From contig WFMF01000338.1 in assembly GCA_011033025.1 (NCBI GenBank), positions 124,001-188,000 of the forward strand: DNA of 64,000 nucleotides. The letters run 5' to 3'. The notes beneath the pieces were generated by a model that was given only the letters and a program-made list of their open reading frames with translations, was not told the DNA's origin and made no database searches. The position numbers and the translations under genes are program-made. This DNA comes from Beroe forskalii. Taxonomy: Eukaryota > Ctenophora > Nuda > Beroida > Beroidae. Shown piece by piece: positions 5,991-40,948 of the stretch. The stretch's first letter is position 1; the number at the start of each line of letters is the position of its first letter.

Positions 5991-6474
5991 TAGATCCCAA
6001 TTCCCAAATTAAGACACAATGTAATTTACTGGCATCATATCGCAGGGTTTTTATTTGTGTTATTTATTGTTTACGATACGAGGACATGGTTGCATATTTG
6101 AAATTTGATGAGAATAATTTAGCAAAATTTGGGAGAATTCCAATCCAGCAGCCCAACCGTGATTGGAAATAGCTTTGCTATAAAGTTACATATTAACTCA
6201 ATTGCGAATGAATAATAGAAATTAGAACGGCATAAACATGTTACATCTTAACATACATGATACAATATTGGGAATATACCCACATAAGAACTTTATTCTT
6301 TTGTTGTATATCGAACAGTTTACGAAAATTTCATTCAGTTATTCGATTCCTGTCATTGGCCGTACGGCTGCTGGATTTCAAGAAAAACCTTCAAAATAAA
6401 ATAATGTGAGGGGCCGAGGGAGGATTAAAATTTAAATCCAGGATCAGAAAAATGTCCGAGAATATTCAACTAAC

Positions 6475-8064
6475 CGATTTCCCTCATTTTCCTGATGTTC
6501 TTCGAAAAGCCAGAGATGCTAACACAGGATACTTTGAATCCGTTCAGGACGATCTCATAGTAGGGGAAGCCTGAAAATGGGACATTTGACTAGAAATATA
6601 CGAGAAAATTTGACGTTTTTATATGGAAAATCAATTTGTTGACACCAGCACACTGTAATCACTGAATCGGTTCATTAATTAACGCATGTTCACTGATATG
6701 ACTTGTGACCGGTGCAATCAATTCGCTGGTGCAGTTGCTGCCATCGACAGCAACACCAGTAATTCTACTAATACTATAAAAGGGGGATGGTCTGCAAGAT
6801 AACCAGTAATTGACTATCTTGACCAGTTTTGACACCAGTTTTTTGCTTTTAGCTAGCAGAGCAGTCACAACACCATACCACCTGCGTCCGACACAGTGAT
6901 GGGATGCCAGTCAACTGAAGTCTGTTCACACTGCAACTTCATTCGATCACCACTTCGAATTAATATCAACCTGTATAATTGTGTCATTAAGATATACCTG
7001 TGCTAGACTTTTCTTGAAGTCTGAAGTAGAAGTTGTGGAGTTTGCCCTCGTGGATTCGTTGATCTCCGACGTAGAACTTGTACCAACCAGCGTCAATGTT
7101 GATCTTGTACGTCCTTACCTTAAAAGATAGAGTAAATCTAATAGTTAACAGACAGGTTCTAGTGCACTCTCTGCAATGCAGTCACACGGGAAAAAGCTCA
7201 GTTTTTAGTCATGTTTTTGGTCTTTTTGGCCACTTATGGACCAAAAAGCCCATTTCGGCCCAAAAATTGGAGTCTTTCAAGAGGCTGTAAATCTTGAAAA
7301 TGGCCAAAATTCTGAATTCTGAAAGCAGTATTTTCTTATTTGAGTCAAGCTGTACTGGCACGCAAAGTTTCATGAGTTGACTAGTAAAACAATTCAGACG
7401 ACCGTCGACCCCCCACCCCCCGACACCCGGATCAAAATTAAGAAAATCCTCAGACACACTTGGATTTGGGTAAAATCTGTGTAAAAACTAATGCTGCATT
7501 ATTGTTTGGTTTTAGTGCACTCTCTGCAATGCAATCACATGGGAAAAAGCAGTTCTTAGTCATATTCAATGATGAATGAATATGACAGATTACAGGTGCA
7601 GCACAACTGTGGTTTGCAGAATACATACCATGAGGGTCTGAGTTCCCCTGTACAGAAAGTAGACAAGCAGAGCAGAAGGGAAGACAATGCCTTGGCTGAC
7701 TGCCATGGAAGAAGCCAGGACAACTGACACCCAAATGGAGATGATGATCACACACAGCACGGATACAACACATGATGATATAAAGGAAATGAATAATTAT
7801 TCAACTAAATTATAAAATTTTACAGCACAGCAAAATGGGGCATGACTTACAGATCAAAACAGACTGGGCGTCTTGCATGTACAATTCTTGATTCACGACT
7901 AAATACTTACAAGATATATAGAATTCTGGGGGTCTGTCTTTGTAGACTAGAACATTAGGATCACTTTCATCCTTTTTGAAGGGGTATAGAGGATTGTTGG
8001 TGACTTGCTGTTCCAGGGTGGTTTCCACATGCTCCAAGAAGGACCATTTGCTGAACACCCCCAT
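6475..8064 (-). pseudogene. TMEM249-like gene, left-arm partial copy
   Basis: Four exons match the right-arm gene: 7911-8064 (start ATG at 8064, 51 codons), 7629-7771 (two-pass hydrophobic segment), 6998-7118 and 6475-6570. Exon lengths of 154, 143, 121 and 96 nt equal those of the right copy. The expected acceptor of exon 2 reads AT instead of AG (7772-7773), so normal splicing should fail there. The exon-3 acceptor (TTTTAAG) is intact, unlike in the right copy. Exons 5 and 6 are not found in this arm, whose homology ends near 1503. It is most likely a truncated, non-functional duplicate, or the other haplotype with a base error. Identification is by resemblance to TMEM249, a CatSper-associated membrane protein. 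Confidence 0.6.
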
Positions 8065-8392
8065 GCTGCTATTCTAACAGAGCAAATGTGGAGTTAGTAG
8101 ATAAGTCATTGTATAGAAACATCCCAACAATTGAGTTTTTATTGCTTGTCTGAATACCAAATTCACTAGAAAATATCCAGCAATGAATTGGTAAATAATT
8201 TTGATTATTGACAATTGGCTGTAGCATTGACTGTCTGCTCACTGGTCAGTTAAGAGAATGAATCAACAAATAATACATCAAATTTCCACAAAATGAGCAT
8301 TCAAATAACAATCATAATCAAAAATCAAATTCCTATTTACATTTCTATCACAGGATGTAGTCAAATAAAATCCTAGACAATTCTCAGAGATG

Positions 8393-9506
8393 TCATGAGA
8401 CACCAGTATAAATTGAGTGAGATGGTCGACATGGTGAGACAGCCTTTATGTTTCCCACGGGATGCCTCAGTTGTTCCCTGTCCCAAAGCTTATGGAAAAC
8501 CCTCTCTTTTGTAAATCTTGTATTGTTCTTAAATCTGTATGTGTCTGGAGTATATCTCACATAGTTTTGTCTGATTTTGGCCGGTCTATTCGATTGGCAT
8601 CACCACTTCTAGGGTTATATTTTGACTCACTATAATCTCTTAGGTACACTCTGTCATATAATGAAGATTGGGTTAATCTTGGCTGTGGCTCTCCCTGGTC
8701 CATAATTACCACACTTTCTTCATCTGGTTCATCAGTAGCAAACATGTCCATAGTAGGGATTTCAATTATGTCTCTGCTTGGTTTAGTCGATGGCTCATTG
8801 GTTATAGTCATGTCTTCTTGGAGATAAGATAGAGCCTTTTTGTTTCTATTATTCCCATTCACATTTGTTCTTGACTTAGCATAGTTGATATAACTTGGTT
8901 GATCATTTGACATGGGATAGTCTTCAATAAAACGTTTCCCAACCACAATGCTTGTACTTGATTTTGGGGAAGAAGGTGGTGCAGCAGCACCAGAACTCTC
9001 AGAAGAATTATTTTCATTTTGCCATCACCTGACAAACACTTATTTGCTGTTTTACATCATGTTTATCAAGCTTATTGGAAGGCTTTGTTTCTGCCACCTG
9101 AGAGTTTCTTGGTTTCCATTTTGGTCTTTCTCCTTGTTGAACCCATTTCTGATTCATTGTCATTCTTGCACTTCTTATAAAGCCTTTAAAATCTCCTTGA
9201 TTAATAAGCTGGTTCTTAACCTCATTATTATGATGTATGGTGGTTTGAGCCATTCGGTCGACATTCATTATTCCTTTTGGATTGATATGCAGCTGACTTG
9301 GGGCGAGATGGTGACTTGTGTGCTGCAGGAGGCGGTTGACATCTCTGTTCTCGTGTTCCAATCCCTAGTGCAGATTTAGCCCTATTTTGTTGGACCCTCT
9401 GAGGAGGTTCTGGAATGAAAAAGCCCTCTCTATCCAATGTCTGCTCTGTGACCATACGTAAATTGGATGCATTGTTCCCCTTCACTGTCAAGTCTATACC
9501 TACCAT
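8393..9506 (-). pseudogene. Left-arm copy of the 371-codon gene, frameshifted
   Basis: Mirror of the intact gene at 24980-26095, starting at the ATG at 9506. The frame is lost at about 9242 (three A where the right copy has two), again in two A runs at about 9006-9020 (each one A short), and again near 8563 (four A against five). Apart from these indels the protein is almost identical to the intact copy. All four lesions are single-base changes in short A runs, so sequencing or consensus error is a serious alternative to true pseudogenisation. It lies just upstream of the TMEM249-like copy in the same orientation. Confidence 0.75.
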
Positions 9507-9778
9507 ACTGAAAATAGGATTGAATATAAATCAGTGTAATCAGAAAACTACCTGAAATACTCAAAAATCACAAAATAAAAGACTGTGATTCAAATTGAAT
9601 TACAGAAATAGTTCATATCTCATGAAAATATCAATGACCTTTCAATGTGTTTTGGCTTTCAAGTGTTTATAAGATCATACAGGCAATTCAATTAATTAGT
9701 TAATAAAACAAGTAATTTATATTTTATAGCCATTACACCAGTCACCATGATTGAACATATATTACCATTCATCTCATT

Positions 9779-24332: not shown

Positions 24333-24979
24333 CATTAAATTATTACATGATTGGGAAATCTGAAATTATTCTGATGTGGTGATGATGGGACTTAAGGAAA
24401 AATGCCATCAAGACAAACACCACCTCAAAACTGCAATTGTACATTATGCACTGTTATGCTGATCCTTTGTCCATGCCATAACCATAATGGCTGACTGTTG
24501 TTACAACTTACATGATGGTCTCACACATTGATTTCACTTCAAATGTGGTTTTGAATAACTTGCTTATCTGCTTTCTTGTCAGCTGGTATTGGTCTGGATA
24601 CCCAATGCTGTCCATATGCTAGTTTAAGTATTTAGTTTCTATTTATTTTATTGGAACTTTTCATTCAGTACATGGGGCTCAAATATAGGAGCACATCACA
24701 TTAATTTAATCATAATTGACAATGAGATGAATGTTCAATCATGGTGACTGGTGTAATGGCTATAAAATATAAATTACTTGTTTTATTAATTAATTAATTG
24801 AATTGCCTTGTGATCTTATAAACACTTGAAAGCCAAAACACATTCAAAGGTCATTGATATTTTCATGAGATATGAACTATTTCTGTAATTCAATCTGAAT
24901 CACAGCCTTTCGTTTTGTGACTTGAGTATTTCAGGTAGTTTTCTGATTACACTGATTTATATTCAATCCTATTTTCAGT

Positions 24980-26095
24980 ATGGTAGGTATAGACTTGACA
25001 GTGAAGGGGAACAATGCATCCAATTTACGTATGGTTACAGAGCAGACATTGGATAGAGAGGGCTTTTTCATTCCAGAACCTCCTCAGAGGGTCCAACAAA
25101 ATAGGGCTAAATCTGCACTAGGGATTGGAACACGAGAACAGAGATGTCAACCGCCTCCTGCAGCACACAAGTCACCATCTCGCCCCAAGTCAGCTGCATA
25201 TCAATCCAAAAGGAATAATGAATGTCGACCAAATGGCTCAACCACCATACATCATAATAATGAGGTTAAGAACCAGCTTATTAATCAAGGAGATTTTAAA
25301 GGCTTTATAAGAAGTGCAAGAATGACAATGAATCAGAAATGGGTTCAACAAGGAGAAAGACCAAAATGGAAACCAAGAAACTCTCAGGTGGCAGAAACAA
25401 AGCCTTCCAATAAGCTTGATAAACATGATGTAAAACAGCAAATAAGTGTTTGTCAGGTGATGGCAAAAATGAAAAATAATTCTTCTGAGAGTTCTGGTGC
25501 TGCTGCACCACCTTCTTCCCCAAAATCAAGTACAAGCATTGTGGTTGGGAAACGTTTTATTGAAGACTATCCCATGTCAAATGATCAACCAAGTTATATC
25601 AACTATGCTAAGTCAAGAACAAATGTGAATGGGAATAATAGAAACAAAAAGGCTCTATCTTATCTCCAAGAAGACATGACTATAACCAATGAGCCATCGA
25701 CTAAACCAAGCAGAGACATAATTGAAATCCCTACTATGGACATGTTTGCTACTGATGAACCAGATGAAGAAAGTGTGGTAATTATGGACCAGGGAGAGCC
25801 ACAGCCAAGATTAACCCAATCTTCATTATATGACAGAGTGTACCTAAGAGATTATAGTGAGTCAAAATATAACCCTAGAAGTGGTGATGCCAATCGAATA
25901 GACCGGCCAAAATCAGACAAAAACTATGTGAGATATACTCCAGACACATACAGATTTAAGAACAATACAAGATTTACAAAAGAGAGGGTTTTCCATAAGC
26001 TTTGGGACAGGGAACAACTGAGGCATCCCGTGGGAAACATAAAGGCTGTCTCACCATGTCGACCATCTCACTCAATTTATACTGGTGTCTCATGA
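24980..26095 (+). CDS. Unrecognised 371-residue protein, intact
   Basis: A single open frame of 371 codons from ATG at 24980 to TGA at 26095. It has no signal peptide or membrane segment and is rich in S, N, K, R, P and Q, so most of it should be disordered. Conserved-looking islands are at the start (about residues 1-40, with REGFFIPEPPQRVQQN), in the middle (KRFIEDYPMSNDQPSYINY) and at the C-terminus (YVRYTPDTYRF, ERVFHKLWDREQLRHP). A TTTTCAG lies just before the ATG, so a 5' untranslated intron may end there. It ends 337 bp upstream of, and in the same orientation as, the TMEM249-like gene; this order is kept in the other arm. I do not recognise the family; a sperm or cilium role would be guesswork from context. 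Confidence 0.75.
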   Translation: MVGIDLTVKGNNASNLRMVTEQTLDREGFFIPEPPQRVQQNRAKSALGIGTREQRCQPPPAAHKSPSRPKSAAYQSKRNNECRPNGSTTIHHNNEVKNQLINQGDFKGFIRSARMTMNQKWVQQGERPKWKPRNSQVAETKPSNKLDKHDVKQQISVCQVMAKMKNNSSESSGAAAPPSSPKSSTSIVVGKRFIEDYPMSNDQPSYINYAKSRTNVNGNNRNKKALSYLQEDMTITNEPSTKPSRDIIEIPTMDMFATDEPDEESVVIMDQGEPQPRLTQSSLYDRVYLRDYSESKYNPRSGDANRIDRPKSDKNYVRYTPDTYRFKNNTRFTKERVFHKLWDREQLRHPVGNIKAVSPCRPSHSIYTGVS

Positions 26096-26431
26096 CATCC
26101 CTGAGAATTGTCTAGGATTTTATTTGACTACATCCTGCGATAGAAATGTAAATAGGAATTTGATTTTGGATTATGATTGTTATTTGAATGCTCTTTTTGT
26201 GGAAACTTGATGTATAACAGAATGATTATTTGTAGATTCATTCTCTGATCTGACCAAACAGTTAATACTGCAGGCAATTATCAATAATTGAAATTATTTA
26301 CCAATCCATTATTGTAAATTTCTAATGAATATGGTATTCAGAGAATCGATTAGGTACACTCAATTATTGGATGTTTCTTAGATGCAATGACTTATCTACT
26401 AACACCACATTTCCTCTGTTAGAATAGCAGC

Positions 26432-29400
26432 ATGGGGGTGTTCAGCAAATGGTCCTTCTTGGAGCATGTGGAAACTACCCTGGAACAACAAGTCACCAAC
26501 AATCCTCTATATCCCTTCAAAAAGGATGAAAGTGATCCTAATGTTTTAGTCTACAAAGACAGACCCCCAGAATTCTATATATCTTGTAAGTATTTAGTCG
26601 TGAATCAAGAATTGTACATGCAAGACACCCAGTCGGTTTTGATCTGTAAGTCATGCCCCATTTTGCTGTGCTGTAAAATTTTATAATTGAGTTGAATAAT
26701 TATTCATTTCCTTTATATCATCAGGTGTTGTATCTGTGCTGTGTGTGATCATCATCTCCATTTGGGTGTCAGTTGTCCTGGCTTCTTCCATGGCAGTCAG
26801 CCAAGGGATTGTTTTCCCTTCTGCTCTGCTGGTCTACTTTCTGTACAGGGGAACCCAGACCCTCATGGTATGTATTCTAATCTACAAACCACAGTAGTGC
26901 TGCACCTGTAATCTGTCATATTCATTCATCATTGAATATGACTAAGAACTGCTTTTTCCCATGTGATTGCATTGCAGAGAGTGCACTAAAACCAAACAAT
27001 AATGCAGCATTAGTTTTTACACAGATTTACCCCAAATCCTATTTTCTCTGCGGATTTTCTTACTTTTGATCCGGGTATTGGGGGTGGGGGGGGGGGTCGA
27101 CGGTCGTCCGAATTGTTTTACTAGTCAACTCATGAAACTTTGCATACCAGTACAGTTTGACTCAAATAAGAAAATACTGCTTTCAGAATTCAGAATTTTG
27201 GCCATTTTCAAGATTTACAGCTTCTTGAAAGACTCCAATTTTTGGGCCGAAATGGGCTTTTTGGTCCATAAGTGTCCAAAAGACATGACTAAAGGCTGAG
27301 CTTTTTCCCATGTGACTGCATTGCAGAGAGTGCACTAGAACCTGTCTGTCAACTATTAGATTTACTCTATCTTTCATGGTAAGGACGTACAAGATCAACA
27401 TTGACGCTGGTTGGTACAAGTTCTACGTCGGAGATCAACGAATCCATGAGGGCAAACTCCACAACTTCTACTTCAGACTTCAAGAAAAGTCTAGCACAGG
27501 TATATCTTAATGACACAATTATACAGGTTGATATTAATTCGAAGTGGTGATCGAATGAAGTTGCAGTGTGAACAGACTTCAGTTGACTGGTATCCCACCA
27601 GTGGACGCAGGTGGTATGGTGTTGTGACTGCTGTGCTAGGTGAAACCATAAAACTGGTGTCAAAACTGGTCAAGATAGTGAATTACTGGTAATCTCGCAG
27701 ATCATCCCCCATTTAGTATTAGTAGAATTACTGGTGTTGCTGTCAACCAGTGAGTATTGACTCAGCTTTCCATGGTAGCAAGTCAGTGAATAGGCGTTAA
27801 TTAATGAACCGATTCAGTGATTACAGTGACTATTGTCAACAAATTGATTTTCCATATCATAACTTCAAATTTTCTCGTATATTTCTAGTCAATTGTCCCC
27901 TTTTCAGGCTTCCCCTACTATGAGATCGTCCTGAACGGATTCAAAGTATCCTGTGTTAGCATCTCTGGCTTTTCGAAGAACATCAGGAAAATGAGGGAAA
28001 TCGGTTAGTTGAATATTCTCGGACATTTTTCTGATCTTGGATTTAAATTTTAATCCTCCCTCGGGCCCTCACATTATTTTATTTTGAAGGTTTTACTTGA
28101 ATTCCAGCAGCCGTACGGCCAATGACAGGAATCGAATAACTGAATGAAATTTTCGTAAACTGTTCGATATACAACAAAAGAATAAAGTTCTTATGTGGGG
28201 CATAGATCCGTTTGCCACTTTGTCCAGGCGCCAGTTTAATGCAGGTCTAGCGCCGGTTTAATGCAGGTCTATCGCCAGTCTAGTGCAGGTCTAATGCAGG
28301 TTTGGCGCCGGTTTTGTGCAGGTTTAGCGCCGGTTTAGCGCGGGGCCAGCGCCAGTCTAATGCAGGTCCTGTGCCACTCTAATGCAGGTCTAGCGCCGGT
28401 TTGGTGCAGATCCAGCGCCGGTTGAGCGCGGGTACAACGCTGGTGCAATGCAGGTCTAGCGCCGGTTTAATGCAGGTCTTGTGCCAGTCTAGTGCCACTC
28501 TAATGCAGGTCTAGCGCCGGTTTGGTGCAGGTCGAGCGCTGGTTAAGCGCTGGTCCAATGCACCTCGGATGCTATCTCAATATTACTAATGCATTTTATA
28601 CAGATTTGGCGCCGATTAAATTATTCAGGTTCGACGTCGTTTCATGCATGTTTGGCGCTGTTTTAATGCAGGTGCAACGCCATTCCAATGCAGGTTAGTT
28701 ACCACCATCTGGTCCTTCCTGGATGCCTTGAAGCTGGAGCACTCCCTCACAGAGCTGAAGATCGTGAAGCACATGACCAGAGATCCCCCCTACCCGACAG
28801 AAGAAGTGGATCAACTACGATGAACGTTTCCAGAGAGTTGTTGACAAGTACGATGATTATAGTATTGTAAGATATCTGAAAGTTGTAGGTAGTTTGATTT
28901 AGATAATGAGTGATCTTATGTATTTGATTATTATGTGTGTGATATTATAATACTGATCATATTATCATCTTTGCAATTATATTTTGCGTTTTTATAAGTC
29001 CGGGAAATCATGTCGGTAAAATGTCCAGTGTCGGTATAAAGTCCATTTTTGGACTTTATGCCGACCAGGGGTTTTTCGGAGTCGGCATATGGTCCAGTGT
29101 CGGCATAAAGTCCGGGAATCTGCAGGTTTGACGTCTTTTCATGAATGTTTGGCGCTGTTTTTCCAGCGCTGGTTAAGCGCTGGTCCAATGCACCTCGGAT
29201 GCTGTCTCAATATTACTAATGCATTTCATACAGATTTGGCGCCGATTATGCAGGTTTGACGTCTTTTCATGAATGTTTGGCGCTGTTTTGATGCGGGTGC
29301 AACGCCATTCCAATGCGGGTTTGGCGCCGGTTTCATGCAGGTTTAGCATGTTCAATTCTATGCCCCATGACTCTTCATAATAATAATAAATAATGGTTAC

Positions 29401-32400: not shown

Positions 32401-35400
32401 GTTATTGGTAAAAAACTCATTCATTGAATTAACAACAAATTTTCAACTAAACTGCATAAGATTTTAGAAATCTAGAAAATTTGGAAAAAAAGGGGGGCAT
32501 GATCATGAACAAAAGTTGGCTTTTTTGGGCAGAATTGCAATAAAAATGGAGCGAAATAGTAAAACATTTGGAAGTGACCTCGCTATCAAATTCACAATCT
32601 TATATTCATGAGTATCCTCCATAGATTGTGTATCTCAGAAACATGTCTCTTTAGACGGTTAGCTTGTATTCTACATTTTATAACCCCACATGACCATTGA
32701 ATTGGAGTCGATTCGACTGCTAACAGATTATGTTCCACTTATATAAACCCACATTGTTTCATGAGAACTGTATTGAGCATTATGATTATGAATTAATTGT
32801 TTATGTAACTACATGTACCACAAACAAAACTCATAGCATCTATTTTTATAACCCCCGTACTGGGATTTTATACCCCTCATGGGATCATTGGATTGGAACC
32901 GATTCGACTGCTAACAGATTGAATTCAGCTTATATAAACCCACATTGTCTCCTGATGAAATGTATTAAACATTATAATTGTGATTTTATTTTCCATGTGA
33001 CTCCATATACTTACATGAATGAGAAATTTCAAACAGTAGGTATGCGGTTTATACACCCCGCCAAAACTTGATTTTTAGGTTCTTCTCAACTCTCATGTTG
33101 GAGACATTAAGTCTCATGGGAATTGAACAGCAATGTCACTCAATCTCCCCTCAAACATGTTCAAACATGCCCAAAATCAATTTTGTTACAATATAAATTA
33201 TTGGTTATGTCACTACTATTATACATGTCAACAATAGTCTTCGAAAGAACAAACAAATATCAAAAATGAATACTGTCCCCATACAAAAACAAGAAAAGAA
33301 AGAAGTGTTAAATCCTCATCGACATACACACCCCACACCCCACAAAACAACACAACAAAGGGCAATGAGTCTGGTCCCCATTATACCAAGAGCATCAGAT
33401 ACAGGATTTTATTCTCTATTTCAGTCCCTCGATTAATTAATAAGAATCAGAAACAGAGGCGAATGTTTTACCATTTTCATCGCCTTAAAAAAGAAAAGTA
33501 TTAATTCGGTTGGCGATTGATCAGACAGATGACTTCCAAAATCAGCCACTGGGGTCTATTACCCAGCTGGAGAATATATTTAAGCAAGCAATAATCCATC
33601 TAGTTAGCTGTCCTCTACTACTTGGGAGTATTGATTATGCAAACATATTAGCCGATTCGTGACCGTAACCCCTCAGTTTATTTGTGAGGGTCTGTTGCAT
33701 GGCAATTCAGCACCCTGGCAACAGGGAGTGCAATTCTATATATACATATACTTCACATGAATGAGAAATTTCAAACAGTATGCGGTTTATACACCCCGCC
33801 AAAACTTGATTTTTAGGGTTCTTCTCAACTCTCATATTTGGAGACATTAAATTGAACAGCAATGTCACTCAATCTCCCTCAAACATGTTCAAACATGCCC
33901 AAAATCAATTTTGTTATTAAATATAAATTATTGGTTATGTCACTATTATACATGTCAACAATGGGATTCTATGATTAAAGCATTATCATTTATTGTGATG
34001 CCTTTTACCAAGATCAAAAATGTGTTTTCTCACTATAAATATGACTGAAAGAGGACAGAATTCATAAAATTCATAAGAATTCGTTTTGCAGGTGTTCTTC
34101 AACTTTTTCACCATGGTTTCAGAAACATAACTTGCACTCGCTGCAATCATGTTATGGCATACTATAACTACAGAAAACATTTGGAAAGCTGTAGTGGAGA
34201 GGGACGTTTCTGTCCTATTTGCCAGAAACATGTCCAAGCTTGAGGGTCAACTTTTAAACTGGACCATCTACTCAACTGTCAAAGGAAATGGATCGTTTTT
34301 TACATTTTTTGTTATGTTGATTGCATTGCCCCTCAAACACTGAATATAGTTTAAACTCCAAATCTCTAAATTGCCCATCCGAGCATCTACTCAACTACTA
34401 TCATAAATTGATTGTTTTTCACGTTTTTTGGGACGCCGATCACTTTTTGCACCTCAATCCAGTGAGAGTTTAGATTACCCAATTCTCAATCCCAATGTAT
34501 CACCCGGTCTGACATGATTGAAATTCAGGTTTCCGTGCGAAGACTGTGGTGCCCGCCTCACAAACACTCAATTTCAGGGGAGTATTCGTCTAGGGGGATT
34601 CTATCCCGAACACATCGCCTGTCAAACGGACGGTACCGTGTGTCCCTACGAGTTAGTCAGAGATACAGATTGAAATTTTACCCAAGTTATGAGGTTGAAT
34701 CGGTTAATAACTTGGTGGCAAAGATGTTTGTATAAACATGTTGGGGGCATGTATACACTTACCGCTGCACAGTTCGTTTAACTGCACCCAGTACCGCAGC
34801 CAAGCCCACCAGTACTTACTGCACAATTATGTGCAAGTTTGTCGAGGAAAGGCTCCCACACGGGAGCGTGTAACGAGGGGAAGTGTCGTGTCATCAAAAC
34901 GAAGGATGCAGGCTTACTCCACGGAGTTTGCTTATCTTTAAAACTGAGGAGAAGTTCTATGTTATGAAGATTTTGTACAATAATCCCGATTATGATTTGA
35001 GAAGCTTCATCCCAGGGCAACTGATCCATGTTGATGCATGGGCTCGAGAATTGAGGATGGTGAGGAGTATTCTTAGAAGCTATGAGGGTTACTACAGTGC
35101 TATAATTTACTTACTTTTGACAATTTGCCAAAACTTTTGTTTATTTGGATATTTCAATTAAAATGCAAAGGGGGGTCTTATGGTTCCTCTATTGAGCTTT
35201 TTAAAATTTCAATATGGGGTCACAATTAAAATGTATAATATATTTTCGTCGTGAAACAATGTTTCATTCACATTATGCGGAATGCTGTTAGCACAACTAA
35301 AGCGACACCATCCCATGCACAGGGATCGTGACGAGCAAAAACATCCACTCTAAAAAAATTGACACCCTACTCAAATTCCTAATAATGATGACGTTGTTGG

Positions 35401-38400
35401 GGGCCAAGAAAAGAAAGAAGTGTTAAATCCTCATCGACATACACACCCCACACCCCACAAAACAACACAACAAAGGGTACGAGTCTGGTCCCCCATTATA
35501 CCAAGAGCATCAGATACAGGATTTTATTCTCTATTTCTAGTCCTCGATTAATTAATAAGAATCAGAAACAGAGGCGAATGTTTTTACCATTTTCATCGCC
35601 TTAAAAAAGAAAAGTATTAATTCGGTTAAGGATTGATCAGACAGATGACTTCCAAAACTGGGGCCACTGGGGTCTATTACCCAGCTGGAGAATATATTTA
35701 AGCAAGCAATAATCCATCTAGTTAGCTGTCCTCTACTACTTGGAGTATTGATTATGCAAACATATTAGCCGATTCGTGACCGTAACCCCTCAGTTTATTT
35801 GTGAGGGGTCTTGTTGCATGGCACCAGCACCCTGGCAACAGGAGTGCACTATACATACATATACTTACATGAATGAGAAATTTCAAACAGTATGCGGTTT
35901 ATACACCCCGCCAAAACTTGATTTTTAGGTTCTTCTCAACTCTCATGTTGGAGACATTAAGTCTCATGGGAATTGAACAGCAATGTCACTCAATCTCCCC
36001 TCAAACATGTTCAAACATGCCCAAAATCAATTTTGTTACAATATAAATTATTGGTTATGTCACTATTATACATGTCAACAATGGGATTCTATGATTAAAG
36101 CATTATCATTTATTGTGATGCCTTTACCACATCAAAATGTGTTTTCTCACTATAAATATGACTGAAAGAGGACAGAATTCATAAAATTCATAAAATTCGT
36201 TTTACGGGTGTTCTTCAACTTTTTCACCATGGTTCGAAACATAACTTGCACTCGCTGCAATCATGTTATGGCATACTATAACTACAGAAAACATTTGGAA
36301 AGCTGTAGTGGAGAGGGACGTTTCTGTCCTATTTGCCAGGAACATGTCAAGCTTGAGGGTCAACTTTTAACCGACCATCTACTCAACTGTCAGCGGAAAT
36401 GGATCGTTTTTACATTTTTGTTATGTTGATTGCATTGCCCCTCAAACACTGAATATAGTTTAAACTCCAAATCTCTAAATTGCCCCATCTGAGCATCTAC
36501 TCAACTACTATCGCAAATTGATTGTTTTTCACGTTTTTTGGGACGCTGATCACTTTTGCACCTCAATCAGTGAGTTCAGATTACCCAATTCTCTAAATCA
36601 CCCCATCGTATCACCCGGGTCTTCCATGATTGAAATTCAGGTTTCCGTGCGAAGACTGTGGTGCCCGCCTCACAAACACTCTCAATTTCAGGGGGAGTAT
36701 TCGTCTATGGGATTCTATCCCGAACACATCGCCTGTCAAACGGACGGTACCGTGTGTCCCTACGAGTTAGTCAGAGATACAGACGAAATTTTACCCAAAG
36801 TTATGAGGTTGAATCGGTTAATAACTTGGTGGGTGAAGATGTTTGTATAAACATGTTGGGGGCATGTATACACTTACCGCTGCACAGTTCACGAACTGCA
36901 CCCAGTGCAGCCAAGCCCACCAGTACTTACTGCACAATTATGTGCAAGCTGTCGAGGAAAGGCTCCCACACGGGAGCGTGTAACGGGGGAGTGTCGTGTC
37001 ATCAAAACGAAGGATGTGCAGGGTGCTTACTCCACGGAGTTTTGCTTATCTTTAAAAACTGAGGAGAAGTTCTATGTTATGAAGATTTTTTTGTACATCC
37101 CGATTATGATTTGGTGAGAAGCTTCATCCCAGGGCAACTGATCCATGTTGATGCATGGAAGGCTCGAGAATTTGAGGATGGTGAGGGAGTATTCTTAGAA
37201 GCTATGAGGGTTACTACAGTGCTATAATTTACTTACTTTTGACAATTTGCCAAAAACTTGTTTTATTTGGATATTTCAATTAAAATGTAAAGGGGGGTCT
37301 TATGGTTCCTCTATTGAGCTTTTTAAAATTTCAATATGGGGTCACAATTAAAAATGTATAATACATTTCGTCGTGAAACAATGCTCATTCACATTATGCG
37401 GAATGTTGTTAGCATGAACTAAAGCGACACCATCCCATGTGCACAGGATCACGTGACGAGCAAAAAACATCCACTTAAAAAATTGACACCCTACTCAAAT
37501 TCCTAATAATGACGTTGTTGGGGGGCACGCGTGGTCATATTTGACAATCATGTGACTAGAATGGGTCACGTGATCAAAATTGGGGGCTAGGAATGGGTCA
37601 CGTGATCAATATGCTAATAATGCACATAAATATGCGTCATTAAATCACTTGGTGGTGTATATTCCCCGGATTATAATATTTACTGTAGCCTATGCCTATG
37701 ACATCCTACAATTTAATCAAGAAACTCCAAACACAAGCCGAGTTATTGACTCTCAAAAGCTACAATATTGCCGAAAAACCGGTTTTTCGTTGATATCTCG
37801 GACATTTTTCGGGCTAGACACTTCAAATTTTTGGTGAAAAAACTTTCAGCCTATACCTATACCTATGACCGTCCACACGCACAGTGCCTTGTGTCCTTTG
37901 CCTGGACGGTAGACGCACTGTATATGTTTGAAACCCGTTGAATGGGATTGTTTTTGCCTCATACGAGGATAAAATAACTTTAAGGACCAAATTAGCAAAA
38001 TATAAATTTCACGGTCGCACCTGCCATGGGGCGTTTAAGTTCAAGCACATGTTTTGCCAGTGATATTATATCGTCGCATATTTTGGTCTGTGTCCTAAAT
38101 AACTCTGGCTGAGTGACGTCACGCGATATTATACAGAAAATAAGGTGACTACTGCGTTAGTTGCCTCGCAGTGTAACTGCTGCTACCAGGGCCAATGCGT
38201 TATGTTATGAAGTCTCTATCAGTATTTTATTTAGTGTTATAATCTTGAATTACCAGAATTATCATTCTCTCAAAACTCAGGGTTTCAATCCGCCAACCCG
38301 AGCCAACAGCAAAACCTCAATCTTATTGTATCATAAACCTAATTATTGCCCTAACCAAAACCTTAATCTTTCGATGAAGAGCTTTTTCAACAACACCAGC

Positions 38401-40948
38401 GTAGTCTTTGGTCCTTCGTACACATACCAAAACATACGTACAAATTGTATTGGAAGTGGGTTGATTAATGATAACGATGTGATAATCACGTGGCAAGTCA
38501 CATGATTGATGATCGAAATCTGAAATTATGAGTCCAAGCCGGTGGACTCCGCTGGTGGACTCCGCCGGTGGACTCCACCGGCAGACTCCACCAGTGGACT
38601 CCGCGGTGGACTTTAATCCGCCGCGGACTTTTTTGGTGGACTTTTTCGGTGGACTGTCCACCAGTGTGCGGCGGAGCCCTAGCCCGAGCGGACCCGCAGC
38701 GGACCAACCACTCCGCGGCGGAGTTTCAAAAAATCCGCTGCGGGTCCACCAAAGTCCACCAAAATATTTTCGTGGTGGACTTTAGTAATTTAGTGGAGTC
38801 CGCGGCGGACCCGCAACGGGGCCACCGGGTCCGCCATGGGGTTGAGTCCACCCATTTTTTAAGCCCAAGCTGAGTAATCGAGCTCTACACTTGTCTAATT
38901 TTTGCCACACCCGGTATTACAATTTTCGATTATTATTTATTACCAGCTGTAACACTGATATTTGCGCTGGACACAATGTGGCAAATTTTGTGTCACCTTT
39001 TTCTGAAATACTTTTATGGAATACGCGTTGTTACATCTGATATGCTTTACAGCACTTACAATGACATAAACTCGCGCTCGCGTGCCGCGCGTTATATTTG
39101 TTGAACGCGACTATTTTTCTTGCAAAAGTTGGAATTCAGGGAGTAAAATTCTGTAGATGTCTGTCCATCGTTTTGGCTATATTTCCACTTATCAGCCACT
39201 TTCTATCTCTCAGTTTCTTGTTTATGTGTCTTTTTGCTGTTTTTCTAGATTTTACGTTTATCGATGTGTATGTAGCTTTTCATTTCAGGACAAATGGGGA
39301 AGTTCAGACTTTCAGAGTTATTGCATACCTACCTATCCAATCCGAATGTTGACATTTTGTAGAGTGATTCATGATTTTTCAGCCAAAGGAATGTCAAGAA
39401 GACTGATCGTCAACTATTTTGACTACAAAGACGTGTCTCCGCACCATGTGGTACATTGGGAGAAACCTGCTGACATTTCAGCCAGGTACCTAAGCTTTTG
39501 AGTATATCTATTTTCAAAATTCATCGGGGATGTAGCTCAGCGGTAGAGCGTGCGCTTTGCATGCGCAAGGTCCGGGGTTCGAGACCCCGCATCTCCACTT
39601 TTGTTTTTGTCGAAAAATTATTATTGAGATTTTGATAAATGAGTAACTTAATCCACCCGCAGTCCGAATACTGTTTTAAGTTGTAACCTCAGCTTCCCTA
39701 TAAATGATAAACCCACTGTTATCCTCTCTTTTCAGCACCTCCTCTTTTCAGCACCCCTCTTTTCAGTACCCCCTCTTTTCAGCATCCCCTCTTTTCAGCA
39801 CCCCCTCTTTTCAGCACCCCCTCTTTTCAGCACCCCTCTTTTCAGTACCCCCTCTTTTCAGCACCCCTCTTTTCAGCACCCCCTCTTTTCAGCATCCCCT
39901 CTTTTCAGCACCCCCTCTTTTCAGCACCCCCTCTTTTCAGCACCCCCTCTTTTCAGCACCCCCTCTTTTCAGCACCCCCTCTTTTTCAGTATCCCCTCTT
40001 TTCAGCACCCCTCTTTTCAGCGCCCCCTCTTTTTCAGTACCCTCTATTTTCAGCACCCCCTCTTTTCAGCGTCCCTCTTTTCAGCACCCCCTCTTTTCAA
40101 CACCCCCTCTTTTCAGCCCCCCTCTTTTCAGTACCCCCTCTTTTCAGTACCCCCTCTTTTCAGCACCCCCTCTTTTTTAGCATCCCCTCTTTTCAGCACC
40201 ATCTCTTTTCAGTCCCCCCTCTTTTCAGCACCCCCTCTTTTCAGCACCCCCTCTTTTCAGTACCCCCTCTTTTCAGCTCCCCCTCTTTTCAGCAGCCCCT
40301 CTTTTCAGCACCCCCTCTTTTCAGCTCCCCCTCCTTTCAGCACCCCCTCTTTTCAGCTCCCCCTCTTTTCAGCAGCCCCTCTTTTCAGCACCCCTCTTTT
40401 CAGTACCCCCTCTTTTCAGCACCCCCTCGTTGCTGGGAGAGCAAGAGCTGCCCCAAATGCAGGATAATGTGATGCCCCAACTTGTGGTGCCGCCCCTCGC
40501 CTCCTCCGTAAGGAACCCCTCCCCCACCCCGCCCTCTCCTCCTCCTCCCACTGCTGCACCCACTGAACAGCCACAAGACACCGCTGTATCGCCACCAGAC
40601 ACCGCCATATCGCCACCAGTTGCTGCATCATCGCCACCAGTTGCTGCATCATCGCCACCAGTAACAGTCACCGAATCTCAAGCTGTCGAATCGCACCCAA
40701 CTTTTGATGCTGATCCTCCTATAGCAAAAAGCAGCAGCAGAAAACGTTCCAGTATAATTTCTGTGAAGAGAAGCAATGAGGTCGTTCCTGAGGTGGTTCC
40801 TGAGGTTGCTTCCGGGATAGTGCCTGAGGTTGCTTCCGGGATAGTGCCTGAGGTTGCTTCCGGGATAGTGCCTGAGGTTGCCTCTGAGGTTGCTCCACCT
40901 ACTTATCAGGAGGCTGAAGAAGGAGGACAAGAGGGAGATCAGTATTAG
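26432..40948 (+). CDS. TMEM249-like protein, six-exon gene
   Basis: Exons 26432-26585, 26725-26867, 27379-27499, 27908-28003, 39383-39485 and 40420-40948 join in one frame with every phase agreeing, giving 381 residues. Exon 1 is a cytosolic N-terminus with NPLYPFK. Exon 2 (residues 52-99) holds two membrane passes around a short turn. Exons 3-4 are beta-rich (WYKFYVGDQ, LHNFYFRLQ, YYEIVLNGF). Exon 5 ends with NYFDYKDVSPHHVVHW. This layout resembles TMEM249, a membrane subunit of the sperm CatSper calcium channel; the match is from memory. Exon 6 adds a Pro/Ser/Val-rich tail of about 175 residues with PPVAASS and VPEVASGI repeats and a PPTY motif near the end. Intron 4 spans 11.4 kb of repeats. 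The exon-3 acceptor reads ATG rather than AG, so splicing there is doubtful. Confidence 0.6.
28707..28866 (+). pseudogene. Captured exon-like fragment in foldback
   Basis: GC-richer than its surroundings and codon-like. One frame reads FLDALKLEHSLTELKIVKHM followed by a Pro-rich run; a second frame reads WINYDERFQRVVDKYDDYSI and ends at a good donor (ATT then GTAAG). The two frames need a shift or a small missing intron near 28797. It lies exactly between the two 510-bp arms, as expected of a host gene piece taken up by a transposon. The parent gene is not recognised. Confidence 0.45.
29395..29761. repeat. Palindromic GGTTACCGGTGGTAAC array
   Basis: About eleven imperfect units of roughly 33-38 bp, each with ACCATGGTTACCGGTGGTAAC-like sequence shared in parts and TAACGTACGTTACC linkers. 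Nearly every unit is itself an inverted repeat, so the array can fold in many registers. It lies inside the foldback transposon, next to its right arm. Confidence 0.8.
30590..31085 (-). repeat. Dispersed ~140-bp module, mirror copy
   Basis: Reverse complement of 5480-5990, with the same two units and the TTTGGCACACCCG-type end, here at about 30570-30585. It lies in intron 4 of the TMEM249-like gene. Confidence 0.6.
31285..32070 (-). pseudogene. Repeated zinc-finger gene, copy C (5' part missing)
   Basis: Mirror of copy B. It has the CEDCG knuckle, ribbon and C-terminal region but not the N-terminal C2HC fingers. Several breaks are present; treated as a fossil. It is antisense to the TMEM249-like gene, within its large intron. 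Confidence 0.5.
32071..33235. other. Intergenic, mirror of left 2600-4480
   Basis: Same sequence as the left arm without the Helitron (empty site between 32788 and 32789). It contains the two TATATAAACCCACATTGT boxes (reverse orientation) and the upstream part of a zinc-finger unit that breaks off at about 33235. No gene seen. Confidence 0.6.
34100..35110 (+). pseudogene. Repeated zinc-finger gene, copy D
   Basis: Full-length by layout, with the C2HC fingers at the start, the knuckle, the ribbon and the beta-rich C-terminus. It is the most degraded of the copies, with many breaks. Treated as a fossil. Confidence 0.5.
36151..36158 (+). promoter_or_regulatory. TATA box of zinc-finger copy E
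   Basis: TATAAATA 71-78 bp upstream of the ATG at 36229, conserved in the other finger-bearing copies (A and D). Confidence 0.45.
36205..37230 (+). pseudogene. Repeated zinc-finger gene, copy E
   Basis: The best-preserved copy. From ATG 36229 it encodes two C2HC fingers (TCTRCNH...H...C and FCPICQEH...H...C). A diverged direct duplication of about 117 bp follows (about 36373-36605, repeating ATCTACTCAAC and ending AATTGCCCCATC or AATCACCCCATC). Then come the CEDCG knuckle, CTQC/CASC ribbon and C-terminal domain. The duplication may mark a degenerate intron. The copy is interrupted by a few breaks and is treated as a fossil. The function is unknown; an ssDNA-binding-type OB/Zn-ribbon fold is only an impression. 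Confidence 0.5.
37690..38915. repeat. Split copy of the dispersed module
   Basis: The module (CCGAAAAACCGGTTTTTCG, TTGATATCTCGGACATTTTT, GGGCTAGACACTTC) runs to about 37868, and its terminal part (AATCGAGCTCTACACTTGTC, CCACACCCGG) reappears at 38868-38915. The 1 kb between is foreign to the module and includes a MITE-like end at about 38087-38125 and the GGTGGACTCC minisatellite. No gene seen. Confidence 0.5.
38539..38854. repeat. GGTGGACTCC minisatellite
   Basis: About 25 degenerate copies of GGTGGACT(C/T)CGCC or its complement GGAGTCCACC in both orientations, giving many small palindromes and GC-rich shadow frames. Not coding. Confidence 0.8.
39526..39597 (+). tRNA. tRNA-Ala (TGC)
   Basis: A 72-nt cloverleaf. 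The acceptor stem GGGGATG pairs with CATCTCC (one G-T), and the discriminator is A. The D arm contains GCTCAGCGGTAGAGC. The anticodon stem TGCGC/GCGCA encloses loop TTTGCAT with anticodon TGC at 39558-39560. The T arm is CCGGGGTTCGAGACCCCG. There is no intron. A T-run (TTTT at about 39599) follows as a Pol III terminator. The internal A box (TAGCTCAGCGG) and B box (GGTTCGAGACC) look good. It sits in sense orientation inside the last intron of the TMEM249-like gene. Confidence 0.97.
39723..40419 (+). repeat. Minisatellite of 3' splice-acceptor units
   Basis: About 45 tandem copies of CACCCCCTCTTTTCAG (16 bp) or its 15-bp form CACCCCTCTTTTCAG. Every unit is a pyrimidine tract ending in CAG, the consensus animal 3' splice site. 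The array ends exactly at the acceptor of exon 6 of the TMEM249-like gene (CAG at 40417-40419, exon from 40420), whose phase fits exon 5. The consensus unit has no stop codon in any forward frame, which yields long FQHPLFSTP-type open frames that are not a separate gene. Confidence 0.95.

Follow-up and report, generated by a model that had tools for sequence, protein, structure and literature searches.

A splice acceptor amplified into a minisatellite beside its own exon in a TMEM249-like gene of Beroe forskalii

What becomes of an exon whose 3′ splice site has been multiplied into dozens of nearly identical copies? This question is raised by a TMEM249-like gene of the ctenophore Beroe forskalii, located in a 64,000-nt stretch of assembly GCA_011033025.1 (contig WFMF01000338.1, positions 124,001 to 188,000 of the forward strand). 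This whole stretch is called the window below, and coordinates given without a contig or locus name count from its first letter and refer to the forward strand unless stated otherwise. The acceptor of exon 6 of this gene is the last unit of a tandem array of acceptors. We consider it probable that the array is a minisatellite of the "mirage" type described in amphioxus, that its exon-proximal copy is still the inherited acceptor, and that the array itself has no function.

The array was located at 39726-40428 by Tandem Repeats Finder (TRF; period 16, 44.2 copies, 89% matches, 2% indels), and direct parsing resolved it into 44 near-identical acceptor-like units of the form CTCTTTTCAG (consensus CACCCCCTCTTTTCAG, 15-17 bp) with ends from 39735 to 40419. 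A preliminary description of this DNA had spoken of about 45 units of 15-16 bp. This is close to the parsed number, and 40 of the 43 spacings have these lengths (16 bp, n=33; 15 bp, n=7), but the other three measure 17 bp. CAG forms the 3′ end of 42 units and TAG that of one (40180), so that AG is retained in 43; the unit at 40100 ends in CAA and hence is not an acceptor, though counted among the 44. A 16-bp unit consists of 10 nt of intron end (pyrimidine tract plus CAG) and 6 nt matching the start of the exon. As in mirages, the unit spans the exon-intron boundary, and exon 6 (40420-40948, ending in TAG) opens like the units, its first 9 nt (CACCCCCTC) matching them.

Exon 5 (39383-39485), encoding the C-terminal end of the Pfam domain, has the donor CCAG|GTACCT, which leaves two bases (AG). 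Exon 6, the last coding exon found, begins with C, followed by 175 open codons up to the TAG at 40946-40948; in first-order Markov samples, this frame was open by chance in 16 of 20,000 cases. The final unit (40404-40419) is thus a phase-correct acceptor, as originally described, a property shared by 16 of the 44. PF15158 (TMEM249, a sperm cation-channel subunit according to the family description) exceeded the cut-off in one upstream exon (25.3 bits, profile 77-122) and ctenophore orthologues align across the whole domain, but the next upstream exon (profile 127-157, 15.9 bits) and exon 5 (156-181, 20.3 bits), which continue the profile in order, are each below the cut-off alone.

The inherited acceptor was approached by comparison with relatives, made at the protein level. 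The nearest proteins, P0001 of Mnemiopsis leidyi, P0003 of Bolinopsis microptera and P0002, are 61-66% identical; a fourth one, P0004 (E 8e-9), which covers 12% of the query and carries another Pfam domain, was dropped. At the exon 5/6 junction, the Beroe forskalii peptide HWEKPADISAS|TPSLLGEQ...NVMPQ aligns with HWERPAQLH-SSSHSLLDEDD...NVMPQ (P0001), HWERPADLSVTGSSPSLQDEDG...NEMPQ (P0002) and HWERPPDLS-SSSHSLLDE, where P0003 ends. All three relatives cross the junction into the exon-6 peptide (SxSL-type motif) without a repeat peptide, so that the junction at 40419 is the ancestral one. The claim of a 3′ splice site amplified beside its own exon thus holds, with the last copy as the inherited acceptor. 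That the exon-side copy is the authentic one, as in mirages, is supported with regard to the inherited position. A coding repeat acquired by descent was considered for the array and rejected, as the three orthologues have no repeat peptide. Separately, P0002 is longer by two residues at the junction (alignment columns 205-206), perhaps from a 6-nt acceptor shift.

Most of the other acceptors would not lead to this tail. Out of phase with exon 6 are 28 of the 44, which would end early in other frames, while 16 are in phase, including the first (39735). From 11 of the latter, translation would meet an in-frame stop, the TAG of a variant unit at 40164-40180 that ends in TTTTTTAG, and the full tail is kept from five acceptors, namely 40212, 40260, 40308, 40356 and 40419. 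The initial statement that there is no stop in any frame therefore applies to the consensus unit but not to the array, and the proposed length variation of the protein tail is not supported in the form in which it was put forward. Recursive splicing, which requires AG|GT where the new junction forms, was also considered and rejected: in no unit is the CAG followed immediately by GT, and hence no donor is regenerated.

The searched genome comprised 216 Mb in 1134 contigs, and pattern counts of repeats are lower bounds. An exact 30-mer of the unit gave at least seven matches, seven of seven in the array (control, 0). A looser form of the unit, in which one mismatch was allowed, gave at least 90 matches compared with 21 for the reversed control; 38 of these were in the array, and the other 52 were single sites or belonged to other repeat families. 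The idea of a dispersed satellite unrelated to exons, which would have spoken against the preliminary description, was rejected, because the pattern searches found no arrays of the unit elsewhere in the genome. Likewise, no genome-wide enrichment of acceptor-like arrays was found with a pattern of three TTTTCAG at 15-18 bp spacing, which matched 65 times (60 forward, 5 reverse) versus 42 times for the reversed pattern; after subtraction of the 33 matches in this array, the numbers were 32 versus 42.

Splice-site arrays built from other units do occur in this genome, which is rich in repeats. A match of the unit on contig C434 led to a locus of SPMAP1 (by family name, sperm microtubule associated protein 1), of which three exons, at C434 65068, 78212 and 87327, all exceeded the cut-off in the family search. 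All four splice sites of the two introns between these exons lie in tandem copies (loci L052, L053, L054 and L036; C434:65172-67850, 71228-72394, 78141-78237, 78351-78750 and 86964-87340). The end of the first exon with its donor (AAG|GTACGTG) forms a 47-bp unit with about 57 copies in a row and another 25.5 close by, the acceptor of the second exon a 48-bp unit with 2 copies, and the end of the second exon with its donor (GCAG|GTTTAC) a 36-bp unit with 10.8 copies. The last acceptor lies in a 62-bp unit with 6.1 copies (L036 2965-3341). This unit includes a branch-point-like stretch and a pyrimidine tract as well as CAG and the bases that open the exon, and the final copy adjoins the exon that matches PF15075 above the cut-off. 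Both junction phases agree by eye if the exon-side copies are used; the related protein P0005 reads GIKK-LLERT and ETVAG-HYSSPYFQN without a repeat peptide, and P0006 also enters the last exon without one. The acceptor of the first of the three exons (about L052 574) is in no TRF row, and P0005 has about 30 more residues upstream, so that a further upstream exon with an ordinary splice site is likely. By family name, TMEM249 and SPMAP1 are both sperm proteins, which may be chance.

To this locus a survey of kinase genes was added, with 40 partial matches hand-picked from 133 kinase-domain matches and 60 match edges, of which not all are true splice sites, as such edges may fall inside exons. 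One of the 40 loci has a donor-spanning array (L072 241-391, contig C170, minus strand), in which the exon end and donor AACAAG|GTAA form a 65-bp unit with 2.3 copies. Together with the SPMAP1 sites, it shows that such arrays recur on splice sites elsewhere in the genome, as is characteristic of mirages. At five kinase acceptors (L071, L075, L078, L080 and L083), arrays end within about 25 nt. TRF coverage was 7.4% at 1-20 nt from the 60 edges, 12.7% at 21-60 nt, 9.9% at 61-120 nt and 6.5-7.5% beyond; six edges were touched within 20 nt, which is no more than in the flanks. The idea that arrays arise preferentially at splice sites was therefore rejected; they neither avoid exon edges nor clearly favour them. 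Two further observations were made in passing. In L078 and L080 (contig C643), likely paralogues, the introns end in CCCTAACCCCATCCCTCAA-type arrays without AG, that is, branch-point/pyrimidine minisatellites beside the acceptor. In L038 (1967-2828, contig C658), an array ends just before the acceptor of a putative exon called by eye, and behind a copy of the putative exon end and donor lies an array with a 17-bp unit (CCTTTTCAGGGGAAGTA, 29.6 copies).

Related arrangements have been reported from other organisms. A minisatellite of the human gene 6-16 (IFI6) reportedly gives multiple splice donor sites, judging by the title of the paper (Nucleic Acids Res 1995 23:1854). There, too, every unit would contain a splice site belonging to the adjoining exon, but a donor rather than an acceptor, and by the title the use of these sites was studied. 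NAGNAG tandem acceptors, as far as excerpts of two papers show (PMC3250501, PMC2951375), also offer more than one acceptor to one exon, but there are two of them 3 nt apart instead of 44 spaced 16 nt. The accessible part of PMC3087553 cites intron gain through tandemly duplicated AG/GT segments, which shares the tandem copies with splice signals; in contrast, the Beroe array makes no new intron and lengthens an existing one. The amphioxus mirages are known from Adh3, the globins BflGb6 and BflGb9, TnC and PGBD5, and the available parts of the reports (PMC3087553, PMC3902484) describe splicing as undisturbed and BflGb6 haplotypes with 6 versus 3 copies. Both in these mirages and in the Beroe array, the authentic site is the exon-side copy and AG/GT signals are present in many units. 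The amphioxus units are longer in the globins (150-160 bp) and 10-72 bp in Adh3, whereas the Beroe array, from another phylum, has 44 copies of 16 bp without a good branch point.

A neutral expansion seeded by the acceptor, one of the options in the preliminary description, fits best with the arrays on other splice sites of this genome and, as far as the excerpts go, with the amphioxus precedent. A 16-bp stretch over the 3′ splice site would have been tandemly duplicated to 44 copies by slippage or unequal exchange. The extra copies would lie in the intron, while the copy touching the exon would stay the inherited acceptor, as the orthologues suggest. The array probably persists because enough correct mRNA is still made, either from the acceptor nearest the exon or from one of the five in-frame acceptors that follow the TAG. 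In the amphioxus mirages, which are the closest known kind, splicing is reportedly undisturbed; we therefore favour the exon-side acceptor as the one used, though well short of certainty. The array would be an extreme case, because its unit has no good branch point and use of the last acceptor means passing 43 others.

Several points weigh against this interpretation. By home-made, unfitted branch-point weights, the better branch-point-like sites precede the array, and the last units contain none of them. The candidate GTAAC (39683-39687, A at 39686) precedes the first array acceptor by 49 nt, and other candidates are at 39635, 39646 and 39651. The best site inside the array, TCAAC (40100), would serve 40116, an in-phase acceptor from which translation meets the TAG. 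First-AG scanning, according to the accessible text of PMC1431707, favours the first AG past the branch point, while a very close AG can be bypassed. The AG at 39692, 6 nt past GTAAC, is within the bypassable range, and scanning predicts that 39735 should win. Protein searches gave no transcript of the array's species among about 8000 candidates sharing most words. Finally, 37 differences from the consensus were counted across 43 aligned units (gaps included, three inserted T left out), 28 in the three bases after CAG and 9 in the other 13 positions. Distinct substitution kinds numbered 6 of 9 possible ones after CAG versus 8 of 39 elsewhere (Fisher p=0.012). The low variation of the TTTTCAG core could mean that acceptors are kept by selection. 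The contrast is also compatible with founder effects in copying, and variant copying between units inflates such tests.

The best-surviving alternative, although we regard it as unlikely, is that 5′-to-3′ AG scanning from an upstream branch point uses the first acceptor, 39735. The array would then be exonic, the protein would stop at the TAG 40178-40180 after about 148 residues of FSTP/FQHPL repeats, and the former tail would be lost or a minor product. The acceptor 39735 is in phase and 49 nt from the GTAAC site, and the AG-free stretch upstream of it is 43 nt, compared with 16 nt at 40419. At 22 hand-called acceptors, this stretch had a median of 33 nt versus 22 nt at random AGs of the window, and 55% versus 30% reached at least 30 nt, so that some AG exclusion does operate. 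The rule nevertheless looks lax, as eight of these 22 acceptors have another AG 12-20 nt upstream. The unit lengths of the array are non-triplet, and both the homology and the open frame of the exon-6 tail are preserved. In addition, exon 6 contains tandem repeats at 40570-40881 with TRF periods of 21, 21, 12 and 24 bp (the rows overlap and perhaps represent only two independent arrays). These periods are all multiples of 3, in contrast to 15, 16 and 17 in the acceptor array, as would be expected from these few events if translation includes exon 6 but not the array. Two of these rows are 100% identical, as opposed to 89% in the acceptor array, and hence probably younger, which suggests, again from few events, that translation of the tail continued once the array had formed.

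A functional switch, in which the choice of acceptor sets the tail length or the array sequesters polypyrimidine-binding factors, appears improbable. The five in-frame acceptors would add 0, 21, 37, 53 or 69 residues, and AG has been retained in all units but one; however, 39 of the 44 acceptors lose the tail, and the presence of similar arrays at both donors and acceptors in unrelated genes suggests a mutational process. An assembly artefact with a collapsed or expanded repeat is very improbable, for although the unit number of any tandem array depends on the assembly, 18 kinds can be distinguished among 43 parsed units, no series of more than three unlike units is seen twice, and the flanks on both sides are unique.

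The first four coding exons (region 26432-28003) were placed at 26432-26585, 26725-26867, about 27385-27499 and 27908-28003, the first two by orthologue alignment and the third and fourth by PF15158. The intron between the second and the third (26869-27378) contains part of an abundant repeat, elsewhere arrayed at roughly 340-bp spacing (at least 435 matches) and here bounded by the 8-bp direct repeat TCATGGTA; no in-phase GT-AG junction was found around it by eye. Self-BLAST revealed an inverted duplicate of the region with these exons on the minus strand at 6279-9758, paired with 24731-28199. In the codons compared, the two copies show 10 synonymous and no nonsynonymous differences, which indicates coding constraint on this part of the gene. 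No copy of exon 5 or exon 6 was found elsewhere by genome and profile searches, exon 6 being present once in the assembly. A tRNA-Ala gene (anticodon TGC) was detected by ARAGORN at 39526-39598, inside the 934-nt intron of the array and 40 nt past the donor, with five other genome copies 90-99% identical. The window further contains a direct duplication of about 2.1 kb at 33290-37524 (93% identical); additional copies are located near 1.5-6.3 kb and 31-32 kb.

Among the matches listed in the literature, no title reports a splice-site minisatellite in ctenophores, and the accessible part of the ctenophore genome paper PMC8527503 holds nothing on splice-site arrays; mirage-type repeats thus apparently occur here in a phylum new for them. 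With some doubt, we raise the possibility that the spliceosome reaches the last of 44 almost equal acceptors without a good nearby branch point, against first-AG scanning (or from a remote branch point, the pyrimidine-rich array being skipped as a block), and that across the genome exon edges have been turned into minisatellites without breaking genes. The locus offers a natural experiment on acceptor choice, with 44 nearly equal sites and predicted mRNAs that differ by the 684 nt of array included or removed. Taken with SPMAP1, this locus suggests that the splice-site minisatellites described in amphioxus are a feature of a ctenophore genome too, and new exons, introns and tail variants may arise from such arrays.

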